The position numbers and the translations under genes are program-made. Below the pieces are notes generated by a model. That model was not told the origin of the DNA and searched no databases. It was given only the letters and a program-made list of their open reading frames with translations. From Pseudoxanthomonas sacheonensis (GTDB lineage Bacteria; Pseudomonadota; Gammaproteobacteria; Xanthomonadales; Xanthomonadaceae): a stretch of 64,000 nt of DNA. The stretch is from positions 1-64,000 of the forward strand of contig NZ_PDWS01000024.1 of the NCBI RefSeq assembly GCF_010093305.1. The letters are read 5' to 3'. This document shows positions 6,677 to 30,342 of the stretch, one piece after another. Each line of letters begins with the position of its first letter. Position 1 is the first letter of the stretch.

Positions 6677-8737
6677 CTATTGCGCCGCATGGAAATGGCG
6701 CTTGAACGCCACATCACCGGTGGGGTCGGCATCGAGTTCGCGCGCATAGCGATGGCCTTCGTAGACCGCGTGGGCAATGAGCCCGGGCGCATGCGCATCG
6801 CCGATGCAGCGCACCGAGCGGATGCCGGCGTCGGCCCATTCGGCCTGGCGCGACAGCAGCGCCTGGTAGAGCGCATCGTCGGGCAGCCTGGCGGTGATGG
6901 CCACGACCGCGTCGCATTCCAGCGTGCGCGTCTTTCCGCTCCAGACCTGCTCGAGCGACAGCGTCGTACCCTCGAAGCCGGTGATGTTGTGCGACACCAC
7001 CTGTTCGACCTCCAGCTCGGCCATGCGGACCTGGATGTGCCTGTAGTCCAGCGTGTGCACGCTCCATGAGGCGATGGTGTCGTCGGCGGTCAGATAGGCG
7101 ACTTCGCAACCCTGCTTGCGCAGCGCTTCGGCCAGCACGCTGGCCAGGTAGAAATAGTCGTCGTCGAAGATGGCGACGCGGCCCTGCGGCATGCGTCCGT
7201 CCATCAGGTCGTCGGGAGTGAAGATGCGTTCGTTGCCTTCGAAGCCGGCGATGCCCAGTCCGTTGCTGCGCCCGTAGCCGTCGCGGCGCCAATGGCAGCC
7301 GGTGGCCAGCACCACGTGCTCGGCGCCGAAGTCGAGCACGTCCTGCGCGGTCAGCTGCGAATCCTGGTAGATGCTCACGTTCTCCATCTTGCCTATCTGG
7401 CCCACGCGCCAGTCGCGTACGCGCGCCCATTCCGACAACCCGGGCAGGCGCGCCTCGCGGCTCACGCGGCCGCCCAATTCCTTGCGGCCTTCGGCCACGC
7501 TCACTTCATAGCCGCGCTGGCCCAATGCACGTGCGGCTTCAAGACCTGCCGGGCCGGCGCCCACCACCAGCACGCGCGATTCGGATCGCCGCTTGGCGAT
7601 GTTTTCCGGATGCCAGTCCTTGCGCCACTCTTCGCCCATGGTCGGGTTCTGCGTGCAGCGGATCGGCGAAATGGTCATGTCGCCGGACACGCAGATATTG
7701 CAGCCGATGCATTCGCGGATGTCGTCGATGCGTCCTTCCTCGATCTTCTTAGGCAGGAAGGGATCGGCGATGGACGGGCGCGCGGCGCCGATCATGTCCA
7801 GCACGCCGCGCTTGATCTGCGACACCATGGTGTCGGGCGAGGTGAAACGGCCCACGCCGACCACCGGTCTGGTGGTGGTCTTCTTGACGAAATCGATGAA
7901 GGGTTCCTGCGCGCCCTCGGCGGCGAAACGCGAGGGCAGGGAATCGTTGTACCAGGCGGCCACGTTGACGTCCCACAAATCGGGAATTTCGGCCAGCATG
8001 CCGACGATATCGCGCGCTTCGTTCAACTCCACGCCGCCCGGCCCAAGCAGTTCCTCGGTGGCGAAGCGGATGGCGACGGCGCAGGTGTCGCCCACCGCGT
8101 CCTTGGTGTCCTGCAGCACTTCGCGCAGCAGGCGCACGCGGTTCTCCAGCGATCCGCCGTACTCGTCGGTGCGCTGGTTGCGGCGGCGCTGCAGGAAATG
8201 CATGGCCAGCGACAGATCGTGTCCGGCGTAGACGTAGATGATGTCCATGCCCGCGCGCTTGCCGCGGATCGCGGCCTCGCGATGCCAGCGCCTGTATTCG
8301 CGTATGTCGTGCAAGTCCATGGCGCGGGCCTGCGCCGGGTAGCCGTACTTGGACGGCTGGTGCGAAGGCGCGATCAGCACTTCGCGCGAAAAAAGGTTGG
8401 AAGCGGTCGGCCCGTTGTGCGAAAGCTCCAGCGCCGCCAGCGCGCCATGCGCATGCACCTTGTCGCTCATCAGCGCCAGCGCGGGGATATCGCGGTCGTC
8501 CCACAGGCGCGCTTCGACGTACGGCGTCAAGTCGCTGCTGGGGTGGATCTCGCATTCCTCGGTCGAAATCACCGCCCAGCCGCCTTCGGCTTTCACTTCG
8601 CGCATCGCCGCATGCGCCAACGGCATGGCGTGGCCCATGCCGTTGCAATGCGGCACTTGGAAGAAACGGTTCTTGGCGGTCACCGGACCGATCTTTATCG
8701 GCGTGAACAACAGGTCGTAACGGGGATCGCGAGCCAT
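6677..8737 (-). CDS. FMN/4Fe-4S/FAD oxidoreductase, N-methyl amino acid demethylase type
   Basis: At 686 residues this matches the three-domain architecture of 2,4-dienoyl-CoA reductase and trimethylamine dehydrogenase, and especially the bacterial dimethylglycine or N-methylproline demethylases (DgcA, StcD). Residues 1-340 are the Old-Yellow-like FMN barrel; then CIGCNICVSGDMTISPIRC gives the cysteine cluster for the 4Fe-4S centre; then VLVVGAGPAGLEAARALGQR opens the FAD/NAD domain. Such enzymes oxidise a secondary or tertiary methylamine and release formaldehyde. It starts only 3 bases after the amino-acid permease stop, so the two are co-transcribed, and a Rieske oxygenase lies further upstream on the same strand. 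The demethylase role is inferred from family and context; a dienoyl-CoA reductase is the alternative. Confidence 0.85.
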   Translation of the reverse strand: MARDPRYDLLFTPIKIGPVTAKNRFFQVPHCNGMGHAMPLAHAAMREVKAEGGWAVISTEECEIHPSSDLTPYVEARLWDDRDIPALALMSDKVHAHGALAALELSHNGPTASNLFSREVLIAPSHQPSKYGYPAQARAMDLHDIREYRRWHREAAIRGKRAGMDIIYVYAGHDLSLAMHFLQRRRNQRTDEYGGSLENRVRLLREVLQDTKDAVGDTCAVAIRFATEELLGPGGVELNEARDIVGMLAEIPDLWDVNVAAWYNDSLPSRFAAEGAQEPFIDFVKKTTTRPVVGVGRFTSPDTMVSQIKRGVLDMIGAARPSIADPFLPKKIEEGRIDDIRECIGCNICVSGDMTISPIRCTQNPTMGEEWRKDWHPENIAKRRSESRVLVVGAGPAGLEAARALGQRGYEVSVAEGRKELGGRVSREARLPGLSEWARVRDWRVGQIGKMENVSIYQDSQLTAQDVLDFGAEHVVLATGCHWRRDGYGRSNGLGIAGFEGNERIFTPDDLMDGRMPQGRVAIFDDDYFYLASVLAEALRKQGCEVAYLTADDTIASWSVHTLDYRHIQVRMAELEVEQVVSHNITGFEGTTLSLEQVWSGKTRTLECDAVVAITARLPDDALYQALLSRQAEWADAGIRSVRCIGDAHAPGLIAHAVYEGHRYARELDADPTGDVAFKRHFHAAQ

Positions 8738-8740
8738 GGA

Positions 8741-10054
8741 TCAGGACCGGTTGAGGCGGACACGCAGGATGCGCATGAACAGGTAAAGCGGCAAGCCCGC
8801 GGCGGCCAGCACCAGCGCCATCATGAAGGCTTCGTGGCCCATGCCGATGAAGGCGAAGATGGAATAAGCCGTTCCCAGCGCCGAGATCAGCGCCAATCCG
8901 CGTATGGCTTTGTCGTCCAGGCGTTTGCCGCGATACCACAACACCGCCAATGCCAGCGAGCAGCAGAGATACAGCGGCAGGTTGGCGGCCGTGACCACCT
9001 GGCTCAGGACGGTGAAGCCGTTGACCAGCGACTTGCTGTAGTTCATCAGGATCATCGCGCTCGCGAGCAGCGCAGTGACGATCAGCGCGAAGCCCGGAGC
9101 GCCGCGCCGGTTGTTGCGCGACAGGAAGGCGGGCAGCACGCCGTTGTCGGCCATGGTGCGGGTCAGTTCGCCGACCAGCAGCGTCCATCCGTTCAACGCC
9201 CCCAACCCGCTGACGACGACGAACAGGGCCAGCCAGCGGCCCACGCCCTCGCCCACGAAACGATCCATCAGCAGCGCGAACGGCGCCGGCGCATTGGCCA
9301 GTTCCTGTTCCGGCAGCAACAGCATCGGTACGGTAGACACGATCAGGTAGATCGCCGCGGTGAGCAGGGTGCCGACGATGGTGGCGAGCGGGATCGTGCG
9401 GCCCGGGTTCTCGACGCGGGATGCGGGAACGGTAGCCGACTCGATGCCCAGCATCGCGAACAGGGCGATGGTGGAAGCGGCCATCGCATCGCCCAGCGAA
9501 ATCGGTTTGCTCGGCGGATGCGCGACATAGGCCTGCGGCGCTTCCACCAGCATCCACACGGCCAGCACCGCGATGGCCAGCATGGGCAGCAGCTTCAGCG
9601 CCGTGGTCACGATCTGCACGCCGCCGCCGGTGCGTACGCCGCACAGGTTGATGACCACGAACGTCCACAACAGGCCAAGCGCGAACAGCGAGGGTTGCAG
9701 CTGGCCCAACTGGGGAAAGACCGCGGTGATGTAGGCGACCACGCCGGTCGCCAGCGCCGCATTGGTGATCCACAGGGAGACCCAATAGCACCACAGGGCG
9801 ATGTAGGCGGGCAACTCGCCCAGCGTGCTGCGCACGTAGCCGTAGGGGCCGTCCGCATTGGGAAGTTCGCGCGCCAGCCGCGCGAAGACCCGGGCCAGCG
9901 CGATGCAGCCGACTACGGTGATGCCCCAGCCGATGGTCGCGTTGAATCCGTACGGCGCCAGCGATGCGGGCAGCAGGAAGATGCCCATGCCGATGCAGTT
10001 GCCCACTACCAGGGCGGTGCAGGTCCAGAAGCCGATTTGCTTGGATTCGTTCAT
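8741..10054 (-). CDS. APC-family amino acid permease
   Basis: The 437-residue product has about 12 hydrophobic helices and the amino acid-polyamine-organocation signature near the N-terminus, VVGNCIGMGIFLLPASLAPY, a glycine-rich unwound helix 1 that binds the alpha-amino and carboxyl groups. Overall it is closest in feel to arginine/agmatine- and basic-amino-acid exchangers of the APC family. It would move an amino acid or a close derivative across the inner membrane. CCGGAG stands four bases ahead of ATG 10054. It is followed after 3 bases by the demethylase, so its cargo is probably the demethylase's substrate or a precursor. Confidence 0.9.
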   Translation of the reverse strand: MNESKQIGFWTCTALVVGNCIGMGIFLLPASLAPYGFNATIGWGITVVGCIALARVFARLARELPNADGPYGYVRSTLGELPAYIALWCYWVSLWITNAALATGVVAYITAVFPQLGQLQPSLFALGLLWTFVVINLCGVRTGGGVQIVTTALKLLPMLAIAVLAVWMLVEAPQAYVAHPPSKPISLGDAMAASTIALFAMLGIESATVPASRVENPGRTIPLATIVGTLLTAAIYLIVSTVPMLLLPEQELANAPAPFALLMDRFVGEGVGRWLALFVVVSGLGALNGWTLLVGELTRTMADNGVLPAFLSRNNRRGAPGFALIVTALLASAMILMNYSKSLVNGFTVLSQVVTAANLPLYLCCSLALAVLWYRGKRLDDKAIRGLALISALGTAYSIFAFIGMGHEAFMMALVLAAAGLPLYLFMRILRVRLNRS

Positions 10055-10106
10055 GCTGCTCCGGAGTGCGTATAGGTAGTTATGTCAAGAAAGTATCGAC
10101 GGACCC

Positions 10107-10334
10107 CTTCTCCCCTCGTGGGAGAAGAGCCTGCCCCGTACTTGATACGGGGTGGCGCGAAGCGCCGGAAGAGGGGGAGACGGAGCCTGGGAGGCTTGTT
10201 TGACGCGGACTTTTCGAGTGTGGCGACCATGGCGTAGTGGCCTCGGAAATTTTACCGTCGCATCGGTCGGCTGGCTTCGACAACCCCTCTCCCGCCGCGC
10301 CAAGCGCGTCGACCTCTCCCACAAGGGGAGAGGT
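10107..10334. repeat. composite intergenic hairpin repeat (copy 1)
   Basis: The 329-base gap between the amidohydrolase stop and the permease start contains no gene but three clean hairpins: CTTCTCCC/GGGAGAAG at 10107-10127, CCCCGTA/TACGGGG at 10134-10152, and ACCTCTCCC/GGGAGAGGT at 10312-10334. The first and third hairpins recur, in the opposite order, upstream of hslU at 57140-57241. They could attenuate or stabilise the transcript that joins the two halves of this operon. Confidence 0.7.
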
Positions 10335-10383
10335 GGAAATCGCCATTGCGTCCGCTGCTGCCATAAGGTCGTGTTCCCGGTTC

Positions 10384-11682
10384 TCAGTTAAGAGAAACGG
10401 ATACGCCTGCTTTCATAACGCCACGCACTTTGCGCAAACACTCCACATCCCCCAGCGGATCGCATTCCACCGCAACCAGATCGGCGAACTTGCCCACCGC
10501 GATCGATCCCAACTCCTTCTCCTTTCCAAGCAGGGTGGCGGAACCGATCGTCGCCGACTGGATAGCCTGCAGCGGCGTCATCCCATACTTCACCATGTAG
10601 GCGAACTGGCGTGCATTGTCGCCATGCGGATAGACGCCGGCATCGGTGCCGTAGGAAATATTGACGCCGGCCTTGACCGCCTTGCGGAAGCCCTGGCGTT
10701 GGGCGTCGGTGGTTTCCAGGTTCTTGCGCATGATTTCTTCGGACCAGCCGGCTTCGCGCCCTACGGTGTCTATGTAGTCGCCGTTGTAGATGTCCGCATC
10801 CAGCCAGGTGCCGTACTGTTTCATCAGGGCGATGGATTCGTCGTCCATCAACGAGCCGTGCTCGATGGAACGCACGCCGGCGCGTACCGCGCGTTTGATG
10901 CCTTCGGCGCCATGGGCGTGGGCGGCGACGAAGGTGCCGTGCTTCTTCGCTTCCTCGACGGCCGCACGGATCTGGGATTCGGTGTATTCCGATTGGCCCG
11001 GTTCCGTACCCGCCGCCAGCACCGCGCCGGTGGCGATGACCTTGATGAAGTCGGCGCCATGGTCCAGCAGGTAGTCCACGTGCTTGCGGATTTCCTCTTC
11101 GTTGTCGGAAACCCCCAGACGGAACTCCGGCGGCACCACCGTGCCTGCGGGCAGGCCGGTGATCTCGCCGCCGCCCCCGCTGATGGTGATGTAGGCGCCG
11201 GCCACGAACATGCGTGGGCCAGGTACCAGGCCGGCGTTGATCGCATCGCGCAGGGTCACGTCGGCCAGGCCGCGGAACACGCCGACATCGCGCACCGTGG
11301 TGAAGCCGGCGCGCAGCGTGTCGCGCGCGTTCTTGGCGCCGATGAGGGCGTCGCGCCCGGGATTGCTTTTCAGCGGCGCGGCGGGATCGGCGGACTGGCC
11401 TTCGTCGGCCAGGTGGGTGTGCATGTCCATCAGGCCGGGCACGACGGTGTAGGTCGACCAGTCGAGGACGCGGACGCGGACGCTGCCGGAAGCACTGTTC
11501 CAGGGCGTTATGGAGACGATTTTTCCGTCTTCGATTGCTATCGCCTGGTCCGCCAGTACTTTTCCCGTTTCGACATCCAGCAGATGCCCGGCGCGGACGA
11601 CGGTGCGTTCCGCGCAATCCGCATAGGAAGCGAATGCGCAAAGCGAGAATGCAGCGGCGAGCAGGGAAGCGCGAGCGGTCAT
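10384..11682 (-). CDS. secreted amidohydrolase, imidazolonepropionase/Xaa-Pro dipeptidase-like
   Basis: This 432-residue protein has a Sec signal (cleavage near SYADCAE) followed by an amidohydrolase-superfamily metal barrel. The ligands are visible in order: HTH in GLMDMHTHLADEG, the bridging Lys in DFIKVIATGAV, His in AAHAHG and SIEHGS, and Asp in SYGTDAG. Secreted members of this branch include dipeptidases that release proline, arginine or lysine from the C-terminus of dipeptides. Its ATG overlaps the stop of the Rieske oxygenase gene (ATGA), so translation of the two is coupled. That coupling suggests it frees the compound, or removes a product, of the Rieske reaction. The exact substrate is not readable from sequence. 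Confidence 0.88.
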   Translation of the reverse strand: MTARASLLAAAFSLCAFASYADCAERTVVRAGHLLDVETGKVLADQAIAIEDGKIVSITPWNSASGSVRVRVLDWSTYTVVPGLMDMHTHLADEGQSADPAAPLKSNPGRDALIGAKNARDTLRAGFTTVRDVGVFRGLADVTLRDAINAGLVPGPRMFVAGAYITISGGGGEITGLPAGTVVPPEFRLGVSDNEEEIRKHVDYLLDHGADFIKVIATGAVLAAGTEPGQSEYTESQIRAAVEEAKKHGTFVAAHAHGAEGIKRAVRAGVRSIEHGSLMDDESIALMKQYGTWLDADIYNGDYIDTVGREAGWSEEIMRKNLETTDAQRQGFRKAVKAGVNISYGTDAGVYPHGDNARQFAYMVKYGMTPLQAIQSATIGSATLLGKEKELGSIAVGKFADLVAVECDPLGDVECLRKVRGVMKAGVSVSLN

Positions 11683-12749
11683 GCGGTTGCTCCAGCGTCG
11701 CCGGCATAGGCCGCGCGCAACAGATTCTGGAAATGCCATACGCCGCTTTCGCGTTTGGGGCAAAGCCGGCCGGCCTCGTAGAAGCCCGAGGCCAGGCCTT
11801 TCTGCACAGCTTCGCAGATGGTCACGTCCTCGATCTGCACTTCGTCGCTGAAGGCCTGGTCGGCGGCGATACGCGACATGGCCTTGTCGTCCTGCGCGTA
11901 GTAATAGTCGAACTCCACCCGGCAGCGTCCCGGACCCAGCGGCAGGATGCGGTTGGTCTGCAAACGGCCCGGCATGATGTTGAGCATCACGTTGGGGTAG
12001 ACGTGGTAGTAGAACGCTTCGCCCTCGCCATAGAATTCGCCGCCGTCGCGCAGCGGCGAGGATTGCAGCGAGTACCAGGGGAACAGTTCGGTGTCGTAGG
12101 CGCGGTAGTCCAGCACCTTGGACAGCCCCGGGTGCACGTGGGGCAGGTGGTAGCCTTCCAGGAAGTTGTCGATGTAGACCTTCCAGTTGCAATCGATGTC
12201 GTAGGAATCGCGGCGCAGGTAGCGCATCGCCGACAGGTCGATCGGGGCGATGCGTTCGACGATGCCGCCGTACACTTCATCGAAAGCCGGCACGTCATCG
12301 CTCAAGGCCACGAACACCAGTCCCTGCCATTCGTGTACGCGCAGCGGCGGCAGGCGGATGTCGGCCACGTTGAAATCGGCCGCCGCCTGCATTTCCGGCG
12401 CGCTGCGCAGCTGGCCTTCCAGCGTGTAGGTCCAGCCGTGGTATTTGCAATGCAAGGCGCGCGCGCCTTTGCCGTTGCAAAGCGCCAGCGGTCCGGCGCG
12501 GTGGCGGCAGACGTTGGGGAAGGCGCGCAGCACGCCGTCCTGTCCGCGGACCACGATCACCGGCACCTCGCCGATCTTCTCGACCACATGGTCGCCGGGT
12601 TCGGCCAGCTGGTTATGGTGCGCCACCAACTGCCAGCTGCGTGCGAACACCGAACGCTGTTCCATCGCCAGCATGTCGTCGCCGAAGTAATAGCGTGCCG
12701 GCAAGGCGCTCGCCAGCTCCAGTTCCTTTGCCGTGTCAACTGCCCGCAT
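11679..12749 (-). CDS. Rieske non-heme iron oxygenase, large subunit
   Basis: The 356-residue product carries the Rieske 2Fe-2S ligands as CRHRAG and CKYHGWTY (Cys-X-His and Cys-X2-His) around residues 80-105. The mononuclear iron site follows in the catalytic domain, DNFLEGYHLPHVHPGL, with two histidines. The compact size and this spacing match the quaternary-ammonium branch (choline, carnitine and stachydrine oxygenases, GbcA) better than aromatic dioxygenases with beta subunits. These enzymes split N-methyl bonds or hydroxylate betaines. No reductase or ferredoxin partner lies in the window, so electrons must come from elsewhere. AGGAGG stands five bases ahead of ATG 12749. It leads a minus-strand unit with the amidohydrolase. 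The substrate class is inference. Confidence 0.9.
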   Translation of the reverse strand: MRAVDTAKELELASALPARYYFGDDMLAMEQRSVFARSWQLVAHHNQLAEPGDHVVEKIGEVPVIVVRGQDGVLRAFPNVCRHRAGPLALCNGKGARALHCKYHGWTYTLEGQLRSAPEMQAAADFNVADIRLPPLRVHEWQGLVFVALSDDVPAFDEVYGGIVERIAPIDLSAMRYLRRDSYDIDCNWKVYIDNFLEGYHLPHVHPGLSKVLDYRAYDTELFPWYSLQSSPLRDGGEFYGEGEAFYYHVYPNVMLNIMPGRLQTNRILPLGPGRCRVEFDYYYAQDDKAMSRIAADQAFSDEVQIEDVTICEAVQKGLASGFYEAGRLCPKRESGVWHFQNLLRAAYAGDAGATA

Positions 12750-12807: not shown

Positions 12808-13980
12808 ATGATCCGTTTCCTCACTGCAGCCGCATTGTGCGCGTTCTGCGCGCTGGCGTCCGCTGCCACACCGCGCGCGCGCGATCTTGGCGTCCCTTTC
12901 GAAGGAACCGCCGGGCCGCTCAATGCGATCACCGATGTTGCCGGCGTTACTGTTGGGCAAGTCACGTTGATCGAGAATCTGTCCGCCGGAAAGAAAGTGC
13001 GCACGGGCGTCACCGCGATCCTGCCGCGTGGACAGGCCACGCTGGAAACGCCGGTGTTCGGCGCATGGTTCGCACTCAACGGCAACGGCGAGATGACCGG
13101 CACCGCCTGGATCGACGAATCCGGGCAACTGGAAGGACCGGTGATGCTGACCAACACCCACAGCGTGGGCGTGGTCCGCGATGCGGTGATCGCCGAGCGG
13201 GTGCGGTCGGGCACGGTCGACTCTTCCGGTTACTGGTGGTCGCTGCCGGTAGTGGCCGAAACCTGGGACGGCGAACTCAACGACATCAACGGTTTCCACG
13301 TGCGGCCCGAGCATGTCGCCAAGGCGCTCGCCGATGCGAGAGGCGGACCGGTCGCCGAAGGCAACGTCGGCGGCGGCACCGGCATGATCTGCCATGAGTT
13401 CAAATGCGGCACCGGCACCGCCTCGCGCATCGTCAAGGCCGATGCGGGCGGCAACTACACGGTGGGCGTGCTGGTGCAGGCCAACTACGGAATGCGCGAT
13501 TCGTTGCGCATCGCGGGCGTGCCGATCGGCCAGCATCTGCGCGACGACCGGATCTACAGCCAGGACCATCCAGACGCCGGCGATACCGGTTCCATCATCA
13601 TCGTAGTCGCCACCGATGCGCCATTGCTGCCGCACCAGTTGAAGCGCATCGCCAAGCGCGCAGGCATGGGCCTGGCGCGGATGGGCAGCTATGCGGGAAA
13701 CGGCTCCGGCGATATTTTCCTCGCCTTTTCCACCGCCAATGCAGGCGCTCTGAAGGGCGATGCGGTCTCGCAGGCCAGCTTCGTCGGCATCGAGCATCTG
13801 GACGGTTTGTTCGAAGCCACGGTGCAGGCCACCGAAGAAGCCATCGTCAACGCCATGGTCGCCGCGCGCGATATGCAGGGCAACGAAGGGCATTACGCCA
13901 AGGCCATTTCGCATCCGGAGCTGGTGAAGTTGTTGAAGAGGTTCGGGCGTTATTCGCCGAAGAAACGAGTCGCGGGATGA
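12808..13980 (+). CDS. P1 family peptidase, DmpA/beta-peptidyl aminopeptidase
   Basis: This is a 390-residue DmpA-family (peptidase S58/P1) enzyme, a group that matures by cutting itself before a nucleophilic serine and removes N-terminal D-amino acids or beta-amino acids. The segment MGSYAGNGSGDIFLAFSTAN contains the Gly-Ser of the autocleavage site, and LTNTHSVGVVRDAVI and NVGGGTGMICHEFKCGTGTA are family motifs forming the substrate pocket. A Sec signal ends at ALASA. ATG 12808 follows GGTGGAG. It is divergent from the Rieske gene (58 bases apart) and converges on the S9 peptidase. Given the two aminotransferases nearby, a beta-amino acid specificity is attractive but unproven. Confidence 0.92.
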   Translation: MIRFLTAAALCAFCALASAATPRARDLGVPFEGTAGPLNAITDVAGVTVGQVTLIENLSAGKKVRTGVTAILPRGQATLETPVFGAWFALNGNGEMTGTAWIDESGQLEGPVMLTNTHSVGVVRDAVIAERVRSGTVDSSGYWWSLPVVAETWDGELNDINGFHVRPEHVAKALADARGGPVAEGNVGGGTGMICHEFKCGTGTASRIVKADAGGNYTVGVLVQANYGMRDSLRIAGVPIGQHLRDDRIYSQDHPDAGDTGSIIIVVATDAPLLPHQLKRIAKRAGMGLARMGSYAGNGSGDIFLAFSTANAGALKGDAVSQASFVGIEHLDGLFEATVQATEEAIVNAMVAARDMQGNEGHYAKAISHPELVKLLKRFGRYSPKKRVAG

Positions 13981-14111: not shown

Positions 14112-16142
14112 TCAAGGTTTCAGGTACTTGTCGTACCACGCCAGATTGCGCTCCAACCGGTCGCGCAGATAGCTCGGCACCGTCAGCCCGTGGTTCTCTC
14201 CCGGATAGATAACCAGCTGCGTGGGCACGTTCAAGGAGCGCAGCGCTTGATACATCTGTTCGGCGCCCAGGCAGGGCACGTTGAAATCCTTCTCCGCGCA
14301 CTGGAACAAGGTCGGCGTCTTGATCCGGTCGGCATGCAGGAACGGGTAGCTGGCGCGGTCGTACTGCTCGCGGTCGTTCCAGGGCGTGCCCAGTTCCAGC
14401 TCGTATTCGCGGATGTACTGGTCGTGGCCGAACATCGCGTACATGTTGGAAGCGCCGGCGCCGCTGACCGCGGCCTTGAAGCGGTTATCGCGCGCGATCA
14501 CCGCATTGGTGAGGATGGAACCATAACTCCAGCCACCGATGCCCAGGCGATCGGAATCGGCGATGCCCATCCGCACCGCGTGGTCGACACCGGCCAGCAC
14601 GTCCTGCACGTCCTTGTTGCCCCAGTCGGCATAGATTGCCTTGGCGAAGTCGAAACCCCGGCCGGAACTGCCGCGCGGATTCACCGCGACGATGGCATAG
14701 CCCTGCGCTGCATAGGTTTGCCAGTCGGGCATGAATTCGTGGCTGTATTCGTATACCGGACCGCCGTGCAGGCGCAGCAAGGTGGGATAGCGCTTGCCCT
14801 TTTCATAGCCGACCGGTTTCATCAGCAGGCCTTCCAGCTCCGTTCCTTCCTGGTTGCGGAAACGGATCTTCTCCACATCCGCCAACCGTTTCTCCGCCAG
14901 CCATTCGTTATGTTTTCCCAACGGGCGCAATCCATCGGCGTTCACTGCGGAAACCTCGTAGGGCTGACGGTCGTCGCCACCCAGCACCACGATGCGGCCG
15001 TCCGCGGAAACGTCGAGGTCGTAATCGAAGCGGTCGCCGTGGGTGAGGTCGGCGACCTTGCCGTCGGCCAGGTCGATGCGCGACAAGCGGGTGACCAGGC
15101 TTTGTTCGACCAGTGCGTAGATGCTCTTGCCGTCGGGCGACCAGCGCGGCTTGTAGAAACAGCGGTCGATGTCGGCCGGAATGGTTTCCTTGCCCGTCGC
15201 CAGGTCCACCACCGCCAGCTGCCAGGGCGCGTAATAGATCCACTTGTCCTCGCCGCTGCGCAGGTAGGCGATGCGCCCGCTGTCCGGGCTCCACGCCGGC
15301 CGCGTTTCCCAGTACGGATCCAGATCGGAACCGGGGAAGGTGGTCAGCTGCCGCTCCTTCGCGCCGGCCCTGGGTTCGATTGCGTAGAGGTCGAAGTTGA
15401 GGTGCCGGTCCGGGTCCGGTCCGCGTTTGGTGACGTAGGCGATCAGCTTGCCGTCGGGCGACCACGCCGGCAGCAGTTCGTCGTGGGCGCCGGAGGTCAG
15501 CTGTTCGACCTTGCCGCTGGCGATATCGAACAGGTAAAGATGCTTGCGCCGCGCGCCCAGGTAACCGGCGCCGTCTTCCTTGAACTGGTAGCGTTCGGTG
15601 ACGATGGGCGGCGGGTTCTTCGGTTTGGGCGTGCCGGCGGGAAACTCCGGGTCCATCACGATCAGGGCCAGCTTTGCGCCATCGGGAGACCAGACGAAAT
15701 CCTCCACGCCGTCGGCGAAGGCGGTGAGCCGGCGCAGCCGCGTTCCCTGTGCGGACATCAGCCAGGCCTGGGTGTTCTCTTCTTCTTGCTTGGCATCGGC
15801 GCCGCCTGTTTTCGCGGCCTTGGCGGTCTTGCGGTCGGACAGGAATGCCAGCCAACGGCCATCGGCCGACCACTGCGGCCGCCACTCGCTGCTGTCGGGC
15901 GTTGCGGTCAGCTGTTTGCGATTGCGGCCGTCGTAATCGACGCGCCACAGATCGGACTGGGCCATGTCTTCCTGCAGGTTCGCCGTGGTGACGGTGTAGA
16001 CCAGCGACAGTCCATCGTTGCTGAGGTCGGGCTCGGTAAGGTCGGCCAGCCGGGCCAGATCGGACGGCATGAACTTTTCGCTTTCCTGCGCTTGCGCGGT
16101 GCCGGCCGCCAGCGCCAGCAGCAACATGGCCGTCGTTTTCAT
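14112..16142 (-). CDS. secreted S9 family peptidase (acylaminoacyl/DPP-like)
   Basis: This 676-residue prolyl-oligopeptidase-family enzyme has a signal peptide (cleaved near GTAQAQ), a seven-bladed propeller built from WSPDGK-type repeats over residues 40-380, and an alpha/beta hydrolase domain. The catalytic serine lies in GIGGWSYGSILT, the aspartate in CAEKDFNVPC and the histidine in YPGENHGL. It would cut short peptides in the periplasm or outside, as acylaminoacyl- or dipeptidyl-peptidases. Its ATG overlaps the stop of the upstream metallohydrolase gene by four bases, making it the last gene of the aminotransferase/CoA-transferase operon. Confidence 0.93.
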   Translation of the reverse strand: MKTTAMLLLALAAGTAQAQESEKFMPSDLARLADLTEPDLSNDGLSLVYTVTTANLQEDMAQSDLWRVDYDGRNRKQLTATPDSSEWRPQWSADGRWLAFLSDRKTAKAAKTGGADAKQEEENTQAWLMSAQGTRLRRLTAFADGVEDFVWSPDGAKLALIVMDPEFPAGTPKPKNPPPIVTERYQFKEDGAGYLGARRKHLYLFDIASGKVEQLTSGAHDELLPAWSPDGKLIAYVTKRGPDPDRHLNFDLYAIEPRAGAKERQLTTFPGSDLDPYWETRPAWSPDSGRIAYLRSGEDKWIYYAPWQLAVVDLATGKETIPADIDRCFYKPRWSPDGKSIYALVEQSLVTRLSRIDLADGKVADLTHGDRFDYDLDVSADGRIVVLGGDDRQPYEVSAVNADGLRPLGKHNEWLAEKRLADVEKIRFRNQEGTELEGLLMKPVGYEKGKRYPTLLRLHGGPVYEYSHEFMPDWQTYAAQGYAIVAVNPRGSSGRGFDFAKAIYADWGNKDVQDVLAGVDHAVRMGIADSDRLGIGGWSYGSILTNAVIARDNRFKAAVSGAGASNMYAMFGHDQYIREYELELGTPWNDREQYDRASYPFLHADRIKTPTLFQCAEKDFNVPCLGAEQMYQALRSLNVPTQLVIYPGENHGLTVPSYLRDRLERNLAWYDKYLKP

Positions 16143-18691
16143 CTTTCGTTCCCCTGTGGCGACCGGCTTTCGGCGATGGCGCGATAGCGTTCGCGCGTCT
16201 GTTGCAGATACTGCAGCGTGGCGCTGCGTTCACCGGCGTCGTTGTAGTCGTCGCGCGCTGCGGCGGCCTCGATCACGCGGTCCAGCCAGCGGGCGAAATA
16301 AGCCGCATCCTGCGGGGCACTGGTGGCCCTGGCATCGCCCAGCCAGACCGGATTGGTGGTCGCGTACGGATACAGGTCCATCACCTGCGGATCGGCGCCG
16401 TCGTTCCAGGCGCGCAGCAGTACCCAGCCGTCTTCCAGTCCGACCGTGCCGTGCGAGTCGAGGCTGCGACGATCGCCGGACAGATCGAAGACCTTCACCA
16501 CCTTGCCGTTGTTCACCAGCTCCAGGTGGTCCATCGCCACCGGCGAGCGCAGTGCGATGCGATAAGCATGCGATTGATTGGACGGCGTCGTTTCCCCAGG
16601 TTTCCTGCCGTCCACCAGCAAGCCCAGCAGCGGGCCGTTGCTGACGAAACCGTGGCCGCCTTTCAATGCTGCGGCCAGCGATGCGTTGTCGCGGCGCCCG
16701 CCGGTATCCAGGAACACGCGGTTCATGCCCACCGGGCCGCGCAGCGATGCGTAGTTGGCCATGGCGTCGGTGCCGGCGCCGGCGGCCAGGCGCAGGCCCA
16801 GGTTGAGCAGGCGGTACCAGACCGCGGCGGTGGCCTTGTGATCGGAGAAACCGACCACTTCCAGGTAGTCGATCTTGCCGCCGATGGCGTCGGCAGGCAG
16901 CGCGTTGCTCAATACCGGATCCTTGGCCGGATCGGGAAAGGTATCGAACGGATGCACGTAGCCGACCAGCCCATGTTGCGAATGCGCCAGGTCGGCGATC
17001 ACGCCGTTGTGCGGATAAGCACTGTCCAGCGCGGTATGGCGATAGGCGGAGAAATCGGGGGTGAGGTAGTGGTCGTCCAGCTGCAGCAAACCAAGATGCC
17101 CCCAGAAACTGGTGTGGTACTCCTGCGCCTGCAGCAGGGTGGTGTGCGCGGTACTGGCCGCATCGGGCCGGGTGCTGAAGTAGCCGATGTCGGGGACGCG
17201 CTCTTCCTTGTTGACGATGGTGTTGAAGACCACATCCAGATCTTCGGCTTGCGCCTGGCGGACGAGGTTGGCAGGAGTGTTGCGGTAGTGGCCGCCATAG
17301 TTCATGTGCACGTGCAGATCGGCGCTGACCCAGTCGCCGAACGGGGCAGGCAGACGTTGCGGCTGCAATTTGGCGGTGATGCTGGAAACTCCGTCAGCGC
17401 CCACTTCGACTTGCTGCCGCCAGGGTGAGTACTGGAATCCATGGCGCACTTCGATGGAAGCCTGCCCGGCTGGCAGGTCCAGCAGGCACGGGGACGCGCA
17501 ATGGAAGTAGTGGGTTTCCGAAGACTGCACGGCACGGTCGAAGCCATCGTCGGCCTGCATCCACGCATCGGCGGGCGCATGCGCGCGCGCATCGCTGCCG
17601 GTCGCCGACACGCGCGCCGAGATCGGCTTGCCGCGTTCGTCGACGATCTTCAGCAACACGCGGCCATGCGGGAGCTTGCGGACAAGACGGGTGGGCGCCA
17701 GTGTCGTGGTCGCGCCGCCGACCGTGTCCATGACCCGCAACGCGGTGTTGCCGTCGCGGTTGTCGATGAAGGCGATGCGCTTGCCGTCCGGCGACCAGCG
17801 TGCGCTGCGGCGGTCGTATTCGCCGAAGGTCAGCGGCAGCGGCGCCACGCCTGCCGGCGTGGTCAGCCACAGCTGCTGCCATTGGCGGCCGCGGTAACTG
17901 CCGTAGAGCAGCCGCTTGCCGTCGGGCGCAAGTTCGGGCCGCGCGCTCCAGCTGGTTTCTTCGCCGAGGATCTTCCGCGGCCGCTGCGGATTGGCCGCCT
18001 CTACCGCCCACAGGTCGCCGGTTCCCCAGGCGACTTCGGCATTGCCCACGTAGTAAAGCGTCTTGCCATCGGCCGACCAGGACGGATTGATGGCGTGGTC
18101 GAAGGCCGAGTAATAGTAGCGGTCGATCCTGCTGCGCCGTTCGCCGAGCAGCGGGCGCGCGTGGCGCAGCCGGTTGCCCTGCAGATCGGCGGTGAACAGA
18201 TTGAAATGCCCGCTACCTTGGGTCGATACCCACGCCAGGCGTTTTCCATCGGGCGACAGCCTGGGCTCGACGTTGACCGCGCCGCCCGAAGTCAGCGGTT
18301 GCTCGTCGCCGCTGGCAAGATCCAGGCGCCACAGTTCGATGCTGTTGCCGTCGTAGCGCGAGAACACCACGCTGCCGCCATCGCGGCTTATGTCGGGCTG
18401 GTAGTCGTAGGCGCCGCGGGCATGGGTCAATTCGATCGCCCGGTCGCTGCCGATCGCCTGTTTCCACAACGACCCGCCCATGCTGTAGACCAGCGTCTTT
18501 CCATCTGGCATGAAACTGGCGGACGAAGGACCGGTGGTCAGCTGCGGAATATATAGCTCGCGCCAGTAGTAGCTATGCGGCAGGTCGACCTGCTTCAGCA
18601 CCGGTTCGCGCGCGGCCTGCGCCGGACCGGCCAGCAACAGCGCCGCCAGCAGACACAGCGGGAACCGGTGCGCAGGCGGAGCGGCATTCAT
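16139..18691 (-). CDS. beta-propeller (PD40) plus CehA/McbA-type metallohydrolase fusion
   Basis: The product is 850 residues with a signal peptide (cleavage near AGPAQAA). Residues 45-390 hold at least five PD40/TolB-like repeats (LSPDGKRLAWVST, WSADGKTLYYVGN, WSPDGKRIAFIDN). The C-terminal half carries a PHP-like metal site beginning DLHVHMNYGGHYRNT, the region shared with CehA/McbA metallohydrolases and other secreted amidohydrolases. It is therefore a predicted periplasmic or secreted hydrolase of amide or ester bonds. It overlaps the aminotransferase gene upstream (ATGA) and the S9 peptidase gene downstream (ATGA), so all three are coupled. The reaction cannot be named from sequence. Confidence 0.8.
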   Translation of the reverse strand: MNAAPPAHRFPLCLLAALLLAGPAQAAREPVLKQVDLPHSYYWRELYIPQLTTGPSSASFMPDGKTLVYSMGGSLWKQAIGSDRAIELTHARGAYDYQPDISRDGGSVVFSRYDGNSIELWRLDLASGDEQPLTSGGAVNVEPRLSPDGKRLAWVSTQGSGHFNLFTADLQGNRLRHARPLLGERRSRIDRYYYSAFDHAINPSWSADGKTLYYVGNAEVAWGTGDLWAVEAANPQRPRKILGEETSWSARPELAPDGKRLLYGSYRGRQWQQLWLTTPAGVAPLPLTFGEYDRRSARWSPDGKRIAFIDNRDGNTALRVMDTVGGATTTLAPTRLVRKLPHGRVLLKIVDERGKPISARVSATGSDARAHAPADAWMQADDGFDRAVQSSETHYFHCASPCLLDLPAGQASIEVRHGFQYSPWRQQVEVGADGVSSITAKLQPQRLPAPFGDWVSADLHVHMNYGGHYRNTPANLVRQAQAEDLDVVFNTIVNKEERVPDIGYFSTRPDAASTAHTTLLQAQEYHTSFWGHLGLLQLDDHYLTPDFSAYRHTALDSAYPHNGVIADLAHSQHGLVGYVHPFDTFPDPAKDPVLSNALPADAIGGKIDYLEVVGFSDHKATAAVWYRLLNLGLRLAAGAGTDAMANYASLRGPVGMNRVFLDTGGRRDNASLAAALKGGHGFVSNGPLLGLLVDGRKPGETTPSNQSHAYRIALRSPVAMDHLELVNNGKVVKVFDLSGDRRSLDSHGTVGLEDGWVLLRAWNDGADPQVMDLYPYATTNPVWLGDARATSAPQDAAYFARWLDRVIEAAAARDDYNDAGERSATLQYLQQTRERYRAIAESRSPQGNER

Positions 18692-20013
18692 AAAGTGCCG
18701 CGCAAAGCCTGATGCAGACTGGTACGCAACATTTCCATCGCTTCGTCCACCTCGGCGATGCTGGTGGTCAGCGGCGGCATGAAGCGCACCGTGCTGACGC
18801 CGCAGGAAAGCAACAACAGGCCGTTGTGGAAAGCACGGGTGACCACGTCGTCGCACAGGCTGCGCGCCGGGGTCCGGTCCGCATCGCTTTCGATCAGTTC
18901 CATGCCGATCATCAGGCCCTGGCCGCGCACCTCGCCGATGCAGGGGTAGTCGCGTTTGAGTTCGTGCAAGCGTTGCATGAAATGCGCGCCGACCGTGGCC
19001 GCGTTATCGATAAGGCCGCCGCGCACCAGGTCCAGGGTCGCGTTGGCGGCGGCGCAGGCAATCGGATTGCCGCCGTAGGTGTTGCCGTGCGCGCCGCGCT
19101 TCCACTGCGACATCAGCGATTTGCGCGCCACCACCGCGCCGATCGGCAGGCCCGAGCCCAGACCCTTGGCCAGGGTCATGATGTCCGGGGAAACACCAGC
19201 GTGTTCGCAGGCGAACATCCTGCCGGTACGGCCCACGCCCGATTGCACTTCGTCGAAGATCAGCAGGATGCCGTGTTCGTCGCACAACGCGCGCAAACCG
19301 GCCAGGAATCCCGGAGGCGGCACCAGGTAACCGCCTTCGCCCTGCAGCGGTTCCACCAATACCGCGGCGACTTCGCTCGCAGGCACGCTGCGTTCGAACA
19401 GCATACGGATGTAGTCCAGCACGGCCTTGCCCTGGTCGTCGCCGGCGAACAGCGGGCGATACGCATTGGGATAGGGCACATGGGTCACGCCCGGCATGGT
19501 CGGTGCGAAGCCCAGCTGCTGGGTGTATTTGCTGGAGGTGAAGGACAGCGAACCCATGGTGCGGCCGTGGAATCCGCCCAGGAAGCCGATGAAGCGCGGC
19601 CGCTTGGTCACGTAGCGCGCCAGCTTCAACGCGCCTTCCACCGCTTCGGTGCCGGACTGGCAGAGGAAGCTCATCGCCGGTTCGGCCATCGGCGCGACCG
19701 CGGCCAGACGCTCGCCGAGCGCGGTCATGTTCTCGTGCCAGTAATCGCTGGAGATGTGCAGGAAATCGTCCGCCGCCGCCTTCACCGCGGCCACCACCTG
19801 GGGATGCGCATGGCCGGTCGCGCATACCGCGATGCCGGCGGCGAAATCAAGGAAGCGGTTGCCGTCCACATCCCACACTTCGGTGCCGCGGCCGTGCGAC
19901 ATGACGAAGGGATAGTCGCGAGGATAGGAGGGCGAGATCACTTCCGCATCGCGCGCGATCATGGCGCGGGCCTTGGGGCCGGGAAGTTCGGTCTTGAGGT
20001 GGGGGATGCTCAT
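18688..20013 (-). CDS. class III aminotransferase, 4-aminobutyrate/acetylornithine type
   Basis: A PLP enzyme of 441 residues in the omega-aminotransferase family, closest in appearance to GabT-like proteins. Visible marks are LLIFDEVQSGVGRTG (Asp that pairs with the PLP nitrogen), LAKGLGSGLPIGAV (PLP lysine) and GNTYGGNPIACAA. Family members move a terminal amino group from omega-amino acids to 2-oxoglutarate or pyruvate, giving a semialdehyde. It is 31 bases from the CoA-transferase B gene and overlaps the metallohydrolase gene by four bases. In the proposed route it would remove the distal amino group of a diamino acid; 4-aminobutyrate or ornithine are simpler alternatives. Confidence 0.9.
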   Translation of the reverse strand: MSIPHLKTELPGPKARAMIARDAEVISPSYPRDYPFVMSHGRGTEVWDVDGNRFLDFAAGIAVCATGHAHPQVVAAVKAAADDFLHISSDYWHENMTALGERLAAVAPMAEPAMSFLCQSGTEAVEGALKLARYVTKRPRFIGFLGGFHGRTMGSLSFTSSKYTQQLGFAPTMPGVTHVPYPNAYRPLFAGDDQGKAVLDYIRMLFERSVPASEVAAVLVEPLQGEGGYLVPPPGFLAGLRALCDEHGILLIFDEVQSGVGRTGRMFACEHAGVSPDIMTLAKGLGSGLPIGAVVARKSLMSQWKRGAHGNTYGGNPIACAAANATLDLVRGGLIDNAATVGAHFMQRLHELKRDYPCIGEVRGQGLMIGMELIESDADRTPARSLCDDVVTRAFHNGLLLLSCGVSTVRFMPPLTTSIAEVDEAMEMLRTSLHQALRGTL

Positions 20014-20044
20014 TGCGGGCCTTCGGGGGATTGGTTGCGGAACG

Positions 20045-20830
20045 TCAGAGGGGAATGGCGACCGGACGGGCGTGCGCCTGGCGGGTGCGCGCATGCAGGG
20101 CGCGCAGGATCTCCAGTTCTCTGGCCTCGGGCGGATCGACGATGCCCACGTGCGCGGCCAGCGCCAGCGGCCAGCCGACCGCGGCGCGCGCTTCTTCCAC
20201 GCCGACGCCGGAGAACAAGGCGGCCAGTTGCAGTTCCTGGGTGTCCGGATGCGGCTTAAGCAGGCCGAAATCGGTGATCACCGAACGCGGTCCGCCGCCA
20301 GGAGCGCCGCTGCGCCCGCGTGCGCCTGAACCCTGCAGGTAACCGGCCGTGGTACGGAAATCCAGTTCGGCCACGAAGCTGCGCGGGGTCGCCTTCAGCA
20401 TCACGAACGTCTCCCGCGCATGGGTGGCGATCTCCGGCGCGCCGCCGGCGCCGGGCAGGCGCGTGTGCGGCGTGTCGTAACTGCCGATCACCGTGCTGTT
20501 GAGATTGCCGTAGCGGTCGATCTGCGCCGCGCCCAGGAAACCCACGTCCACGCGGCCGGCCTGCAGGTAGTAGCTGAAGATTTCCGGCAGCGGGACCACG
20601 CAGGTGGCGGTGCGGGCCAGTTCGCCGTCGCCGATGGACAGCGGCAGCACATCGGGGCGCGTGCCGAGCGTGCCCGACTCGTACACCAGCACGATCTCCG
20701 GCGCGTGGGTAAGGCGGGCCAGGTTGCACGCCGCACTGGGCAGGCCGATGCCGACGAAACAGACGCAGCCGTCCCACAGCAAGCGCGAGGCCGCTATGGT
20801 CATCCATTCTTCGCGCGTGCAGATCGTCAC
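20045..20830 (-). CDS. CoA-transferase, beta subunit (glutaconate/3-oxoadipate type)
   Basis: This 261-residue protein is the B subunit of a family I CoA-transferase. The catalytic glutamate is expected in VYESGTLGTRP, and GFLGAAQIDRYGNLNSTVIG is the conserved glycine loop region. It is fused to its partner by translation: its GTG start at 20830 overlaps the stop of the A-subunit gene (GTGA). The two-subunit enzyme would pass CoA from succinyl-CoA to a dicarboxylic keto-acid such as 3-oxoadipate. A PcaF-type thiolase and a PcaR-type regulator in the divergent unit support 3-oxoadipate, although the sequence itself resembles the glutaconate branch more than Pseudomonas PcaJ. Confidence 0.88.
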   Translation of the reverse strand: MTICTREEWMTIAASRLLWDGCVCFVGIGLPSAACNLARLTHAPEIVLVYESGTLGTRPDVLPLSIGDGELARTATCVVPLPEIFSYYLQAGRVDVGFLGAAQIDRYGNLNSTVIGSYDTPHTRLPGAGGAPEIATHARETFVMLKATPRSFVAELDFRTTAGYLQGSGARGRSGAPGGGPRSVITDFGLLKPHPDTQELQLAALFSGVGVEEARAAVGWPLALAAHVGIVDPPEARELEILRALHARTRQAHARPVAIPL

Positions 20831-21681
20831 GCCGCGTCTTCCAGCAGGCGGCCGAGGAAGTCGCGGTGATCGACGCTGCGCAACACATGTCTGTCCATCC
20901 AGATCAGGAAGCTTTCGCGGTCGCGGGCGATGGCGTCCCACTGCTGGTAGAAGGCGTTGTCCCGTTCGTAGTGTCCCTGAGCATAGGAGGGATACGCGCC
21001 GCCGGGGCAGTGCACCACCGCGCTCACCAGCCAATGGGGAAGCAGGACGGCATTCATGGCTGGGGCCAGGTTATCGACCAGTTCTTCCACCGTGACCACC
21101 AGCGATTTGGCGGCCAGTGCTGCTTCGCGCGCGGCGCCGACGATGCCGTGCAGGGCGATGTTGCCCTGCCGGTCCGCGCTTTGCGCGTGCAGAAGGGTGA
21201 CGTCGGGATTGATCGCCGGCACCGCCGCCAGGGTTTCCCCGGTGTACGGGCACTGCACGCTGCGGATGGCGGGGTTGTGCGCCGGCAGATCGGTATTCGC
21301 GTAGCCGCGCAATACGCCGAAGGGCAGGCGCGCGGCGCCGGCGCAATAGGCGGCTGCCATGCCGGCGTGGCTGTGTTCGTCCAGTTGCAGCGGCGCGGGC
21401 CAACGCCGCTCCACCGCATCGCGCAGGCGGTGCAGCGAGCCGACGCCGGGATTGCCGCCCCAGGAAAAGGTCAGCTTGCGCGCGCAGCCCATGCCGATCA
21501 TCTGGTCGTAGATCAGATCGGGCGTCATCCGCACCAGGTGCAGGTCGTGGCGGCGCTGGCGGATGATCTCGTGGCCGGCCGCGAAGGGGATGAGGTGGGT
21601 GAAGCCTTCCAATGCGACGCAGGCGCCGTCGTGCACGTGCTCGGCGATCGCATCGGCCAGGGTGAGGAAGCGCGCGCTCAC
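20827..21681 (-). CDS. CoA-transferase, alpha subunit (glutaconate/3-oxoadipate type)
   Basis: The 284-residue A subunit shows the family's CoA-binding and pocket segments: VALEGFTHLIPFAAGHEIIR, LTFSWGGNPGVGSLHRLRD and QSADRQGNIALHGIVGAARE. It has the length of glutaconate CoA-transferase A, about 50 residues longer than Pseudomonas PcaI. The GTG start at 21681 overlaps the aldehyde dehydrogenase stop (GTGA), and its own stop overlaps the B-subunit start, so three genes in a row are coupled. With the thiolase at 25503 it would activate 3-oxoadipate and hand it to cleavage. Other C5-C6 keto-acids are possible. Confidence 0.88.
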   Translation of the reverse strand: MSARFLTLADAIAEHVHDGACVALEGFTHLIPFAAGHEIIRQRRHDLHLVRMTPDLIYDQMIGMGCARKLTFSWGGNPGVGSLHRLRDAVERRWPAPLQLDEHSHAGMAAAYCAGAARLPFGVLRGYANTDLPAHNPAIRSVQCPYTGETLAAVPAINPDVTLLHAQSADRQGNIALHGIVGAAREAALAAKSLVVTVEELVDNLAPAMNAVLLPHWLVSAVVHCPGGAYPSYAQGHYERDNAFYQQWDAIARDRESFLIWMDRHVLRSVDHRDFLGRLLEDAA

Positions 21682-24607: not shown

Positions 24608-24641
24608 GTGCGGTAATCGAACACTAATTCGTATTGCGAAC
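24608..24641. promoter_or_regulatory. putative operator pair for the PcaR-type regulator
   Basis: The 104-base divergent promoter holds two similar imperfect palindromes, GTGCGGTAATCGAAC at 24608-24622 and ATTCGTATTGCGAAC at 24627-24641, spaced 19 bases start to start. The reverse complement of the first, GTTCGATTACCGCAC, differs at two positions from GTTCGATAATCGCAC, which I recall as the 15-base operator of Pseudomonas PcaR. This location would let one regulator control both the aminotransferase operon and its own gene with the thiolase. Confidence 0.55.
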
Positions 24642-24690
24642 CCATTGGAAACCTTCTACGCTCGGACTGTCAATCCACACGCGACGGCGC

Positions 24691-25506: not shown

Positions 25507-26705
<1,199 letters not shown>

Positions 26706-30300: not shown

Positions 30301-30342
30301 TTATCCAAGCACCGACAACCATCACTGGAGAGAGTGACGCAG

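Follow-up and report, generated by a model that had tools for sequence, protein, structure and literature searches.

What do a Rieske oxygenase, a flavin-dependent amine dehydrogenase, a permease and a secreted amidohydrolase do when their genes stand side by side? Positions 6677-12749 of a 64,000-nt stretch of DNA from the soil bacterium Pseudoxanthomonas sacheonensis (contig NZ_PDWS01000024.1; the whole stretch is called the window here) hold four minus-strand open reading frames (ORFs) in the order Rieske oxygenase (RO), amidohydrolase (AHS), APC-family permease (APC) and dehydrogenase. A reading of the sequence alone had proposed an N-demethylation module in which RO is paired with a DgcA-like dimethylglycine/N-methylproline demethylase, and it proved half right: we find a quaternary-ammonium-type Rieske module whose partner belongs to the trimethylamine dehydrogenase (TMADH)/histamine dehydrogenase (HADH) family, tied to peptide breakdown and to the operon downstream. 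We put a probability of roughly 40% on a catabolic module for peptide-derived, N-methylated cationic amino acids of what we infer to be the lysine type, which RO and the dehydrogenase would N-demethylate.

The four genes are confirmed where the sequence-only reading had placed them, including the amino-acid permease and the secreted amidohydrolase coupled to RO. Codon-position GC supports all four frames, the AHS start and the RO stop overlap by 4 nt (ATGA), the dehydrogenase begins 3 nt past APC, and the AHS N-terminus is hydrophobic and signal-peptide-like. AHS and APC are separated by 329 nt (10055-10383). This gap contains an inverted-repeat-like sequence of the CTCTCCC...GGGAGAG type. In L019, a nearly identical locus, the tblastn ends are about 146 nt apart, so the window may have gained a small repeat by insertion.

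The best PDB matches of the dehydrogenase are the histamine dehydrogenases 3k30 (793 bits) and 6de6 (785 bits), followed by 6l6j (721 bits) and trimethylamine dehydrogenase 1djn (581 bits), with 2,4-dienoyl-CoA reductase 1ps9 at 122 bits. Identity is 56–57% to HADH, 46% to TMADH (over the N-terminal ~500 residues), 28% to FadH and 26–29% to four DgcA proteins. These DgcA references were chosen by genomic context, two for lying beside DUF3483 (DgcB) genes and two from dgcAB-etf-gbcAB-sox clusters of Paraburkholderia and Sphaerotilus; the part of PMC12093977 that we consulted describes dgcB as carrying DUF3483 and following dgcA. In a tree of 30 sequences, the window enzyme and its RO-linked relatives fall with HADH and TMADH, and the four DgcA proteins and FadH lie across a branch supported at 100/100, in a topology that includes several long branches and does not settle the order within the TMADH/HADH family.

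The active-site residues give the same assignment. The window enzyme has Cys30, Tyr169, His172, Trp264, Asp267 and four cluster cysteines (Cys345, Cys348, Cys351 and Cys364), as do 17 other linked sequences. We take Cys30 to carry 6-S-cysteinyl-FMN, the four cysteines to hold the 4Fe-4S cluster, and Tyr169, His172 and Asp267 to have their TMADH/HADH roles. Domain order, covalent-FMN cysteine, catalytic Tyr and His, and 4Fe-4S cysteines are thus common to the window enzyme, HADH (3k30, 6de6) and TMADH (1djn), and Asp267 is shared by all except 6de6. At sites 30, 169, 172, 264 and 267, the four DgcA proteins have Ala/Ser, Ser, His, Ser and Asp, with Ala at site 348; the covalent-FMN cysteine is absent from all four. 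Tree, residues and identity together rule out the DgcA label, and a dienoyl-CoA reductase was likewise rejected, FadH being in the opposite branch. The 686-aa protein is, on its sequence, a TMADH/HADH-family member and not DgcA-like, which makes the pairing with a Rieske oxygenase a new combination and cautions against calling FMN/FeS/FAD enzymes beside Rieske genes DgcA by default.

Within this family, the pocket of the window enzyme is distinctive. Site 60 is Glu in 18/18 linked sequences, Gln in HADH and Tyr in TMADH, and the linked sequences have the HADH-type Asp at the site of TMADH Trp355. Together these two residues would favour a charged amine and disfavour trimethylamine as a substrate of the dehydrogenase. 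Presumably the HADH pocket consists of Gln, Trp and Asp; the window enzyme retains the Trp and the Asp of the SGD motif and has Glu for Gln, and so does not appear to be a histamine dehydrogenase proper.

RO, for its part, resembles the quaternary-ammonium branch as the earlier reading had held. Its nearest solved relative by sequence is CntA (156 bits in a PDB search), with Stc2 at 110–113 bits and 26% identity, and it is about 30% identical to YeaW, of the CntA/YeaW carnitine monooxygenases. The features expected of Group V quaternary-ammonium Rieske oxygenases, a CxH...CxxH Rieske motif and a 2-His-1-Asp iron site with a bridging Glu, are all present: C81/H83, C101/H104, E198, H201, H206 and D308 are invariant in both alignments and line up with the CntA residues named in the consulted part of PMC7948474. 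The second mark of this group, closeness to CntA, Stc2 or GbcA by sequence or fold, is also found. When an AlphaFold model (mean pLDDT 86, 23 rows) was compared with the 1000 chains ranked highest by Foldseek, nine of the top ten re-aligned entries were CntA or Stc2 (Z 35.0–33.1; ranks 1–10 with root-mean-square deviations of 2.5–3.0 over 324–352 residues). Rank 6 carried the title putative aromatic-ring hydroxylating dioxygenase. The first known aromatic dioxygenase, at rank 11 (Z 32.4), was tied with the last CntA entry, so the margin in fold is small. An aromatic dioxygenase is supported by neither the fold ranking nor the tree, and the trees gave neither of the two placements, with aromatic dioxygenases or with dienoyl-CoA reductases, that the earlier reading had named as contrary to it.

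The phylogeny did not place RO among the betaine demethylases. In a tree of 32 sequences, RO lies inside a 17-member clade (99/98), apart from GbcA plus Stc2 (100/100) and from YeaW; its neighbours (node 83/84) are the second Rieske protein of the same genome (L041, 39% identity) and a Gemmatirosa protein (45%). All 23 sequences of node 83/84, which joins the RO clade to its paralogues and L148, have Phe or Tyr at the position of CntA Tyr203, where the GbcA/Stc2 group (Vb) is marked by a non-aromatic residue (Asn). The consulted part of PMC7948474 assigns this Tyr a pi-cation role that applies to enzymes of the carnitine/choline type but not to GbcA/Stc2. The CxxC pair beside the iron site is missing from the RO clade, RO itself having EGYHLPHVH instead of ECYHCGPAH; according to PMC10952381, only some Group V members have this pair. 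RO thus appears nearest to the quaternary-ammonium enzymes CntA and Stc2, yet in a clade of its own. The second Rieske protein (L041:9064-10176, contig C40) carries DNYLDGGYHVPHLH, and its contig is likewise without a NAD_binding_1 reductase. By this motif we take the protein to resemble plant choline monooxygenase.

These placements bear on two alternatives. A glycine-betaine or stachydrine pathway (GbcA/Stc2 with DgcA/StcD) would share the logic of a Rieske enzyme followed by a flavin demethylase, and the GbcA model NF058607 does match the N-terminal part of RO, but at 141 bits, where a GbcA scores 462 and Stc2 498; the cut-off of 670 is strict, as that 462-bit GbcA comes from a dgc/sox cluster. 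With RO outside the GbcA/Stc2 clade, the dehydrogenase outside the DgcA branch and lacking its residues, and the DgcB, ETF (electron-transfer flavoprotein), GbcB and sarcosine oxidase families all absent among the neighbouring ORFs scanned, we consider such a pathway extremely improbable. No relative of the window flavoenzyme was found within 49 kb around Stc2 on pSymA.

The second alternative is deamination in place of demethylation: RO would cleave a C-N bond like CntA, releasing trimethylamine or another amine and a semialdehyde, and the dehydrogenase would deaminate a doubly charged primary or secondary amine like HADH. It draws on the aromatic residue that RO shares with the CntA/choline group and not with GbcA/Stc2 (PMC7948474, in part), on a dehydrogenase that is closer to HADH than to TMADH and keeps the HADH-type Asp, and on an aldehyde dehydrogenase encoded in the neighbouring operon. 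Freed trimethylamine would be ill suited to the altered aromatic bowl of TMADH in this enzyme, however, and the RO clade is without the CxxC pair of CntA; we regard C-N cleavage as somewhat unlikely.

The same comparisons locate the module among known systems. CntA is the solved structure nearest to RO in both sequence and fold, and RO shares the bridging Glu, His-His-Asp site and aromatic residue 203 of CntA/YeaW but is without the CxxC pair and has no CntB/YeaX-type gene beside it; with Stc2 it shares the fold and the Rieske and iron sites, whereas Stc2 groups with GbcA. GbcA/GbcB plus DgcAB clusters (L145, L146) likewise combine a quaternary-amine Rieske enzyme with a tertiary-amine flavin enzyme, transport genes and a nearby dipeptidase gene, but the module differs in its Rieske clade, its TMADH/HADH-family flavoenzyme, its APC permease in place of betaine ABC uptake, and its lack of reductase, DgcB or ETF genes. 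In those glycine-betaine clusters an annotated dipeptidase lies two genes upstream of dgcA (L145:18278-19249, L146:18405-19376; also in the consulted part of PMC12093977). The peptidase does not set the module apart from known systems, as the sequence-only reading had supposed; unrelated systems, too, have betaine demethylases with peptidase genes as neighbours. A Rhodococcus pNit cluster (L151:5421-16555) encodes an RO relative of 33% identity, a BetT transporter, an aminobutyraldehyde dehydrogenase, a PDR/VanB reductase and a flavoenzyme of the DgcA/FadH type (36% and 32% identity), and looks like an uncharacterised quaternary-amine pathway. A further member of the TMADH family, 6-hydroxypseudooxynicotine oxidase of nicotine degraders, oxidises a methylated secondary amine and is not known to be tied to a Rieske oxygenase.

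The earlier remark that the window holds no Rieske reductase stands for the NAD_binding_1 family, whose six matches in the genome (five over the cut-off) are all on other contigs. The only clear FAD/NAD/Fer2 protein among them (L128) adjoins a fatty-acid desaturase and is a candidate; another match (L129) may, judged from its sequence, carry an iron-sulphur domain.

To follow the grouping across genomes, we scanned genome contigs and kept, as named loci, the 80 best among more than 593 matching stretches. Presence counts rest on identity thresholds of our own choosing, and loci that end at contig ends stay in the counts unless stated. Of the 35 loci with RO at 78% or more, 29 have the dehydrogenase, 30 APC and 21 AHS; of the six that lack the dehydrogenase, four stop less than 4.5 kb downstream. 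Among the 28 loci in this class with at least 4.5 kb downstream, RO-AHS-APC-dehydrogenase occurs in 14, RO-APC-dehydrogenase in 10, RO-dehydrogenase in two, RO-AHS in one and none of the partners in one. The grouping is not due to chance. At lower RO identity the dehydrogenase is found less often, in seven of 22 loci at 63–78% (APC in 14) and in none of 23 below 63% (APC again in 14).

Presence across whole genomes gave the same picture in two samples, of 61 genomes and of 299 genomes of the order, which have members in common; some named loci also come from genomes of these samples (for example L046 = G026, L047 = G019). RO (at least 78%) and the dehydrogenase (at least 77%) share one set of 13 genomes among the 61, in one of which (G049) they are on different contigs. 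At these thresholds, 12 of the 37 genomes of one genus have both, 25 have neither and none has only one, and such patchy presence within a genus makes gain and loss together, beyond descent alone, likely. Weaker relatives occur elsewhere among the 61 genomes (dehydrogenase at 54–57% in two, CoA-transferase at 41% in one, RO at up to 67% in others). In the larger sample, a dehydrogenase homologue (E<=1e-150) is found in 52 genomes. Among the 30 loci fetched, 26, counting the window, have a dehydrogenase of at least 74%; its immediate upstream neighbour is APC or RO in 25 of them, G049 being the exception. The other four, at 55–57%, have neither APC nor RO within about 1.5 kb.

These counts also bear on whether RO might hydroxylate an unmethylated amino acid or amine, the cluster being a general peptide-catabolism island. 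RO-APC pairs without any amine dehydrogenase occur in 9/19 loci at 63–78% and 13/22 below 63%, each with at least 4.5 kb downstream, as this would predict. The nearest sequences and, narrowly, folds are nevertheless those of quaternary-ammonium enzymes, and the 33%-identity relative of RO has a BetT transporter and an enzyme of the DgcA/FadH type in its cluster; an unmethylated substrate seems to us quite improbable.

The nature of the side chain is suggested by AHS and APC. The nearest PDB matches of AHS are 3mtw (Cc2672, 338 bits) and 3be7 (Sgx9359b, 282 bits; in this search 3be7 and 3dug have the same sequence). The part of PMC11342369 that we consulted describes Cc2672 as an L-Arg/Lys carboxypeptidase and Sgx9359b (3DUG) as an L-Arg carboxypeptidase, and it attributes to 2QS8 a preference restricted to hydrophobic C-termini. 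Variants of stretches of Cc2672 (of the DIYN.DY...LRK and YPHGDNA types) occur in the window AHS and in 16 of 17 further AHS sequences, the odd one (L082) being a 33% homologue 9 kb from RO; two of the sequences compared (L030 and L071) come from one locus. AHS would thus be Cc2672-like and, going by these nearest characterised relatives, is predicted to release a C-terminal cationic residue. For APC, a crude hydropathy count gives 10 transmembrane-like windows. Its family membership is clear, its nearest PDB relative is AdiC (3ncy, 187 bits), and it scores 282 bits on the basic amino acid/polyamine antiporter model TIGR00905, under the cut-off of 409.

On this basis we propose the following scheme. 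Peptides would either enter or be cleaved, still outside the cytoplasm, by secreted peptidases (S9, S58, CehA-type and AHS), AHS would liberate the C-terminal cationic residue, and the AdiC-like permease would import it. Lacking a lone pair, a quaternary ammonium is not open to oxidation by a flavin amine dehydrogenase of the TMADH type. RO would therefore act first, on the quaternary form, taking off one methyl group, and the TMADH/HADH-family enzyme would follow, oxidising the tertiary and secondary amines (a chemistry taken from the families) and passing its electrons to ETF or another acceptor. The freed omega-amino acid would then be converted by the two class-III aminotransferases (AT3 and AT3b), the aldehyde dehydrogenase, the CoA-transferase and PcaF to acetyl-CoA and succinyl-CoA, probably by way of a C6 3-oxo acid. 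Our best guess for the substrate is Nε-trimethyllysine with its di- and monomethyl forms, as it would fit release of a C-terminal Lys-type residue, a cationic permease, a quaternary nitrogen and a C6 omega-amine. What the analysis establishes are the family assignments, the conservation of the cluster, the co-occurrence and the active-site residues; the substrate, the sequence of steps, the transport direction and the electron partners are proposals.

Genes around the module (Table 1) are consistent with this fate. The earlier reading had suggested an N-methylated version of the amine used by the adjacent operon, and the link to that operon is stronger than the sequence by itself had indicated: AT3 and CoA-transferase (at least 76%) share the same six of 61 genomes, all among the 13 with RO and dehydrogenase. 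The 35 loci with RO at 78% or more include 17 with the S9 peptidase, 17 with the S58 peptidase, 14 with AT3, 13 with each CoA-transferase subunit, 13 with the aldehyde dehydrogenase and 15 with a TonB receptor. Two cluster forms can be told apart in these loci, one with AT3/S9 (17) and one with a TonB receptor (15); both occur in one locus and neither in four.

Table 1. Genes of the module and its surroundings in the window, with the matches that support each name.
Feature	Coordinates	Strand	Evidence
FMN/4Fe-4S/FAD amine dehydrogenase, trimethylamine/histamine dehydrogenase family (HADH-like)	6677..8737	-	686 aa; Oxidored_FMN + Pyr_redox_2 (Pfam)
APC-family amino-acid/polyamine permease (APC), nearest AdiC	8741..10054	-	437 aa; AA_permease_2 183 bits (Pfam)
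Secreted amidohydrolase (AHS), closest to L-Arg/Lys carboxypeptidase Cc2672	10384..11682	-	432 aa; Amidohydro_1 (Pfam)
Rieske non-heme iron oxygenase (RO), quaternary-ammonium-enzyme-like, own clade	11679..12749	-	356 aa; Rieske 68 bits, Ring_hydroxyl_A 142 bits (Pfam)
Secreted S58 (DmpA-type) peptidase	12808..13980	+	Peptidase_S58 390 bits; in 17/35 loci with RO at least 78%
Secreted S9 prolyl-oligopeptidase-family peptidase	14112..16142	-	Peptidase_S9 176 bits; DPP5 model 245 bits, below cut-off; synteny
Beta-propeller + CehA/McbA-type metallohydrolase (start not settled)	16139..18856	-	NF038032 226 bits, cut-off 80; PD40
Class-III aminotransferase AT3, omega-aminotransferase-like	18688..20094	-	Aminotran_3; PRK05769 579 bits, cut-off 552; PDB 7vno 374 bits
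CoA-transferase subunit (start approximate)	20045..20890	-	CoA_trans 115 bits; in 13/35 loci with RO at least 78%
CoA-transferase subunit, glutaconate-CoA-transferase type (start approximate)	20827..21699	-	CoA_trans 62 bits; PDB 1poi 93 bits
Aldehyde dehydrogenase, pyrroline-5-carboxylate dehydrogenase-like (start approximate)	21678..23105	-	Aldedh; 1uzb 284 bits
Second class-III aminotransferase AT3b	23243..24586	-	Aminotran_3 276 bits
IclR regulator, PcaR/PcaU/PobR subfamily	24634..25506	+	TIGR02431 307 bits, cut-off 285
3-oxoadipyl-CoA thiolase (PcaF)	25503..26705	+	TIGR02430 620 bits, cut-off 597
TonB-dependent receptor	30334..32925	+	TonB_dep_Rec_b-barrel, Plug; synteny

PcaF and a PcaR-type regulator are encoded here, and no intradiol dioxygenase was found in the genome by a search that matched in 4 of 14 control genomes. 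This combination suggests a C6 3-oxo acid with a source other than ortho cleavage of aromatics, and its origin from a lysine-like amine fits the aminotransferase, aldehyde dehydrogenase, CoA-transferase and PcaF genes. The nearest structure to AT3, 7vno, is an ornithine aminotransferase of Pyrococcus.

Another methylated amino-acid cation, such as histidine betaine, the betaine of a peptide N-terminal amino acid or N-methyl beta-lysine, could pass through the same two-step demethylation. The evidence on the substrate is wholly indirect, APC also scores on the histidine-histamine antiporter model (195 bits, cut-off 750), and the S58 peptidases near RO together with the PcaF route would suit a beta-amino acid such as beta-lysine. 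AHS and AT3 point instead to side chains of the Lys, Arg or ornithine type (for AT3 through the function of 7vno), and we hold a cation other than a methylated lysine to be unlikely.

Several observations weigh against demethylation of lysine-type amino acids as the role of the module. RO-APC pairs without the dehydrogenase are common at RO below 78%, where RO may act without a partner or have another substrate, and AHS or the AT3 operon is missing from many clusters. The RO-linked dehydrogenases are not a firm clade (50/90; a single group in 49% of bootstrap trees), and Glu60 is not specific to them, being found in two of three plasmid sequences, in 6l6j and in three of four distant loci (55–57% identity). 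The NCBIfam model that AHS matches (NF051886, 525 bits, cut-off 500) carries the name Xaa-Pro dipeptidase. For all its likeness to Cc2672 and Sgx9359b, its best structural relatives, linked AHS has lost the His and Asp of the GGHCD motif of Cc2672: Gly and Glu replace them in the 16 sequences matching the window AHS, and the solved relatives have GGHCD or GGHAD. The change appears to be a lineage-specific one in the active site, and specificity may differ. Finally, 3-oxoadipate suits beta-lysine (3,6-diaminohexanoate) better than alpha-lysine. Conversion of lysine to beta-lysine by an aminomutase was considered and rejected, as EpmB is the only KamA-family protein, the family searched for lysine 2,3-aminomutase, found in the genome. 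The route from lysine to 3-oxoadipate is thereby left unexplained, and no route from beta-lysine to 3-oxoadipate was apparent in the titles and abstract openings of the literature surveyed.

Methylated lysine is common in proteins of all cells, and to our knowledge its use by bacteria as food is poorly known. Titles and abstract openings of the trimethyllysine papers listed assign no Rieske or TMADH-family enzyme to this compound and describe no bacterial trimethyllysine demethylase; those that combine trimethyllysine with Rieske enzymes concern trimethylamine N-oxide, carnitine and unrelated topics. We found no paper joining N-methylproline demethylase and Rieske. At its fullest, the proposal of a demethylation module for lysine-type amino acids would be a bacterial pathway, so far undescribed, for growth on Nε-trimethyllysine from proteins, with peptidases to release it, a new Rieske clade to remove the first methyl group, a histamine-dehydrogenase-like flavoenzyme to remove the rest, and conversion of the C6 skeleton to acetyl-CoA and succinyl-CoA with no aromatic intermediate; in this complete form we think it rather unlikely. 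Both enzymes, the permease and the peptidase are open to direct expression and testing.

Just downstream of the dehydrogenase, a protein of serine beta-lactamase fold is encoded at 4955-6658, with no match in the 80 named loci. The TonB receptor of the window is 17.6 kb from RO, and its relatives are no farther than 10 kb from RO in the 15 receptor-containing loci of the 35 with RO at 78% or more. In two TonB-type clusters, TPR/sulfotransferase proteins adjoin the receptors (L023:6721-8760, L086:6303-8372), and a further receptor/sulfotransferase pair is found in the window at 36088-40849.

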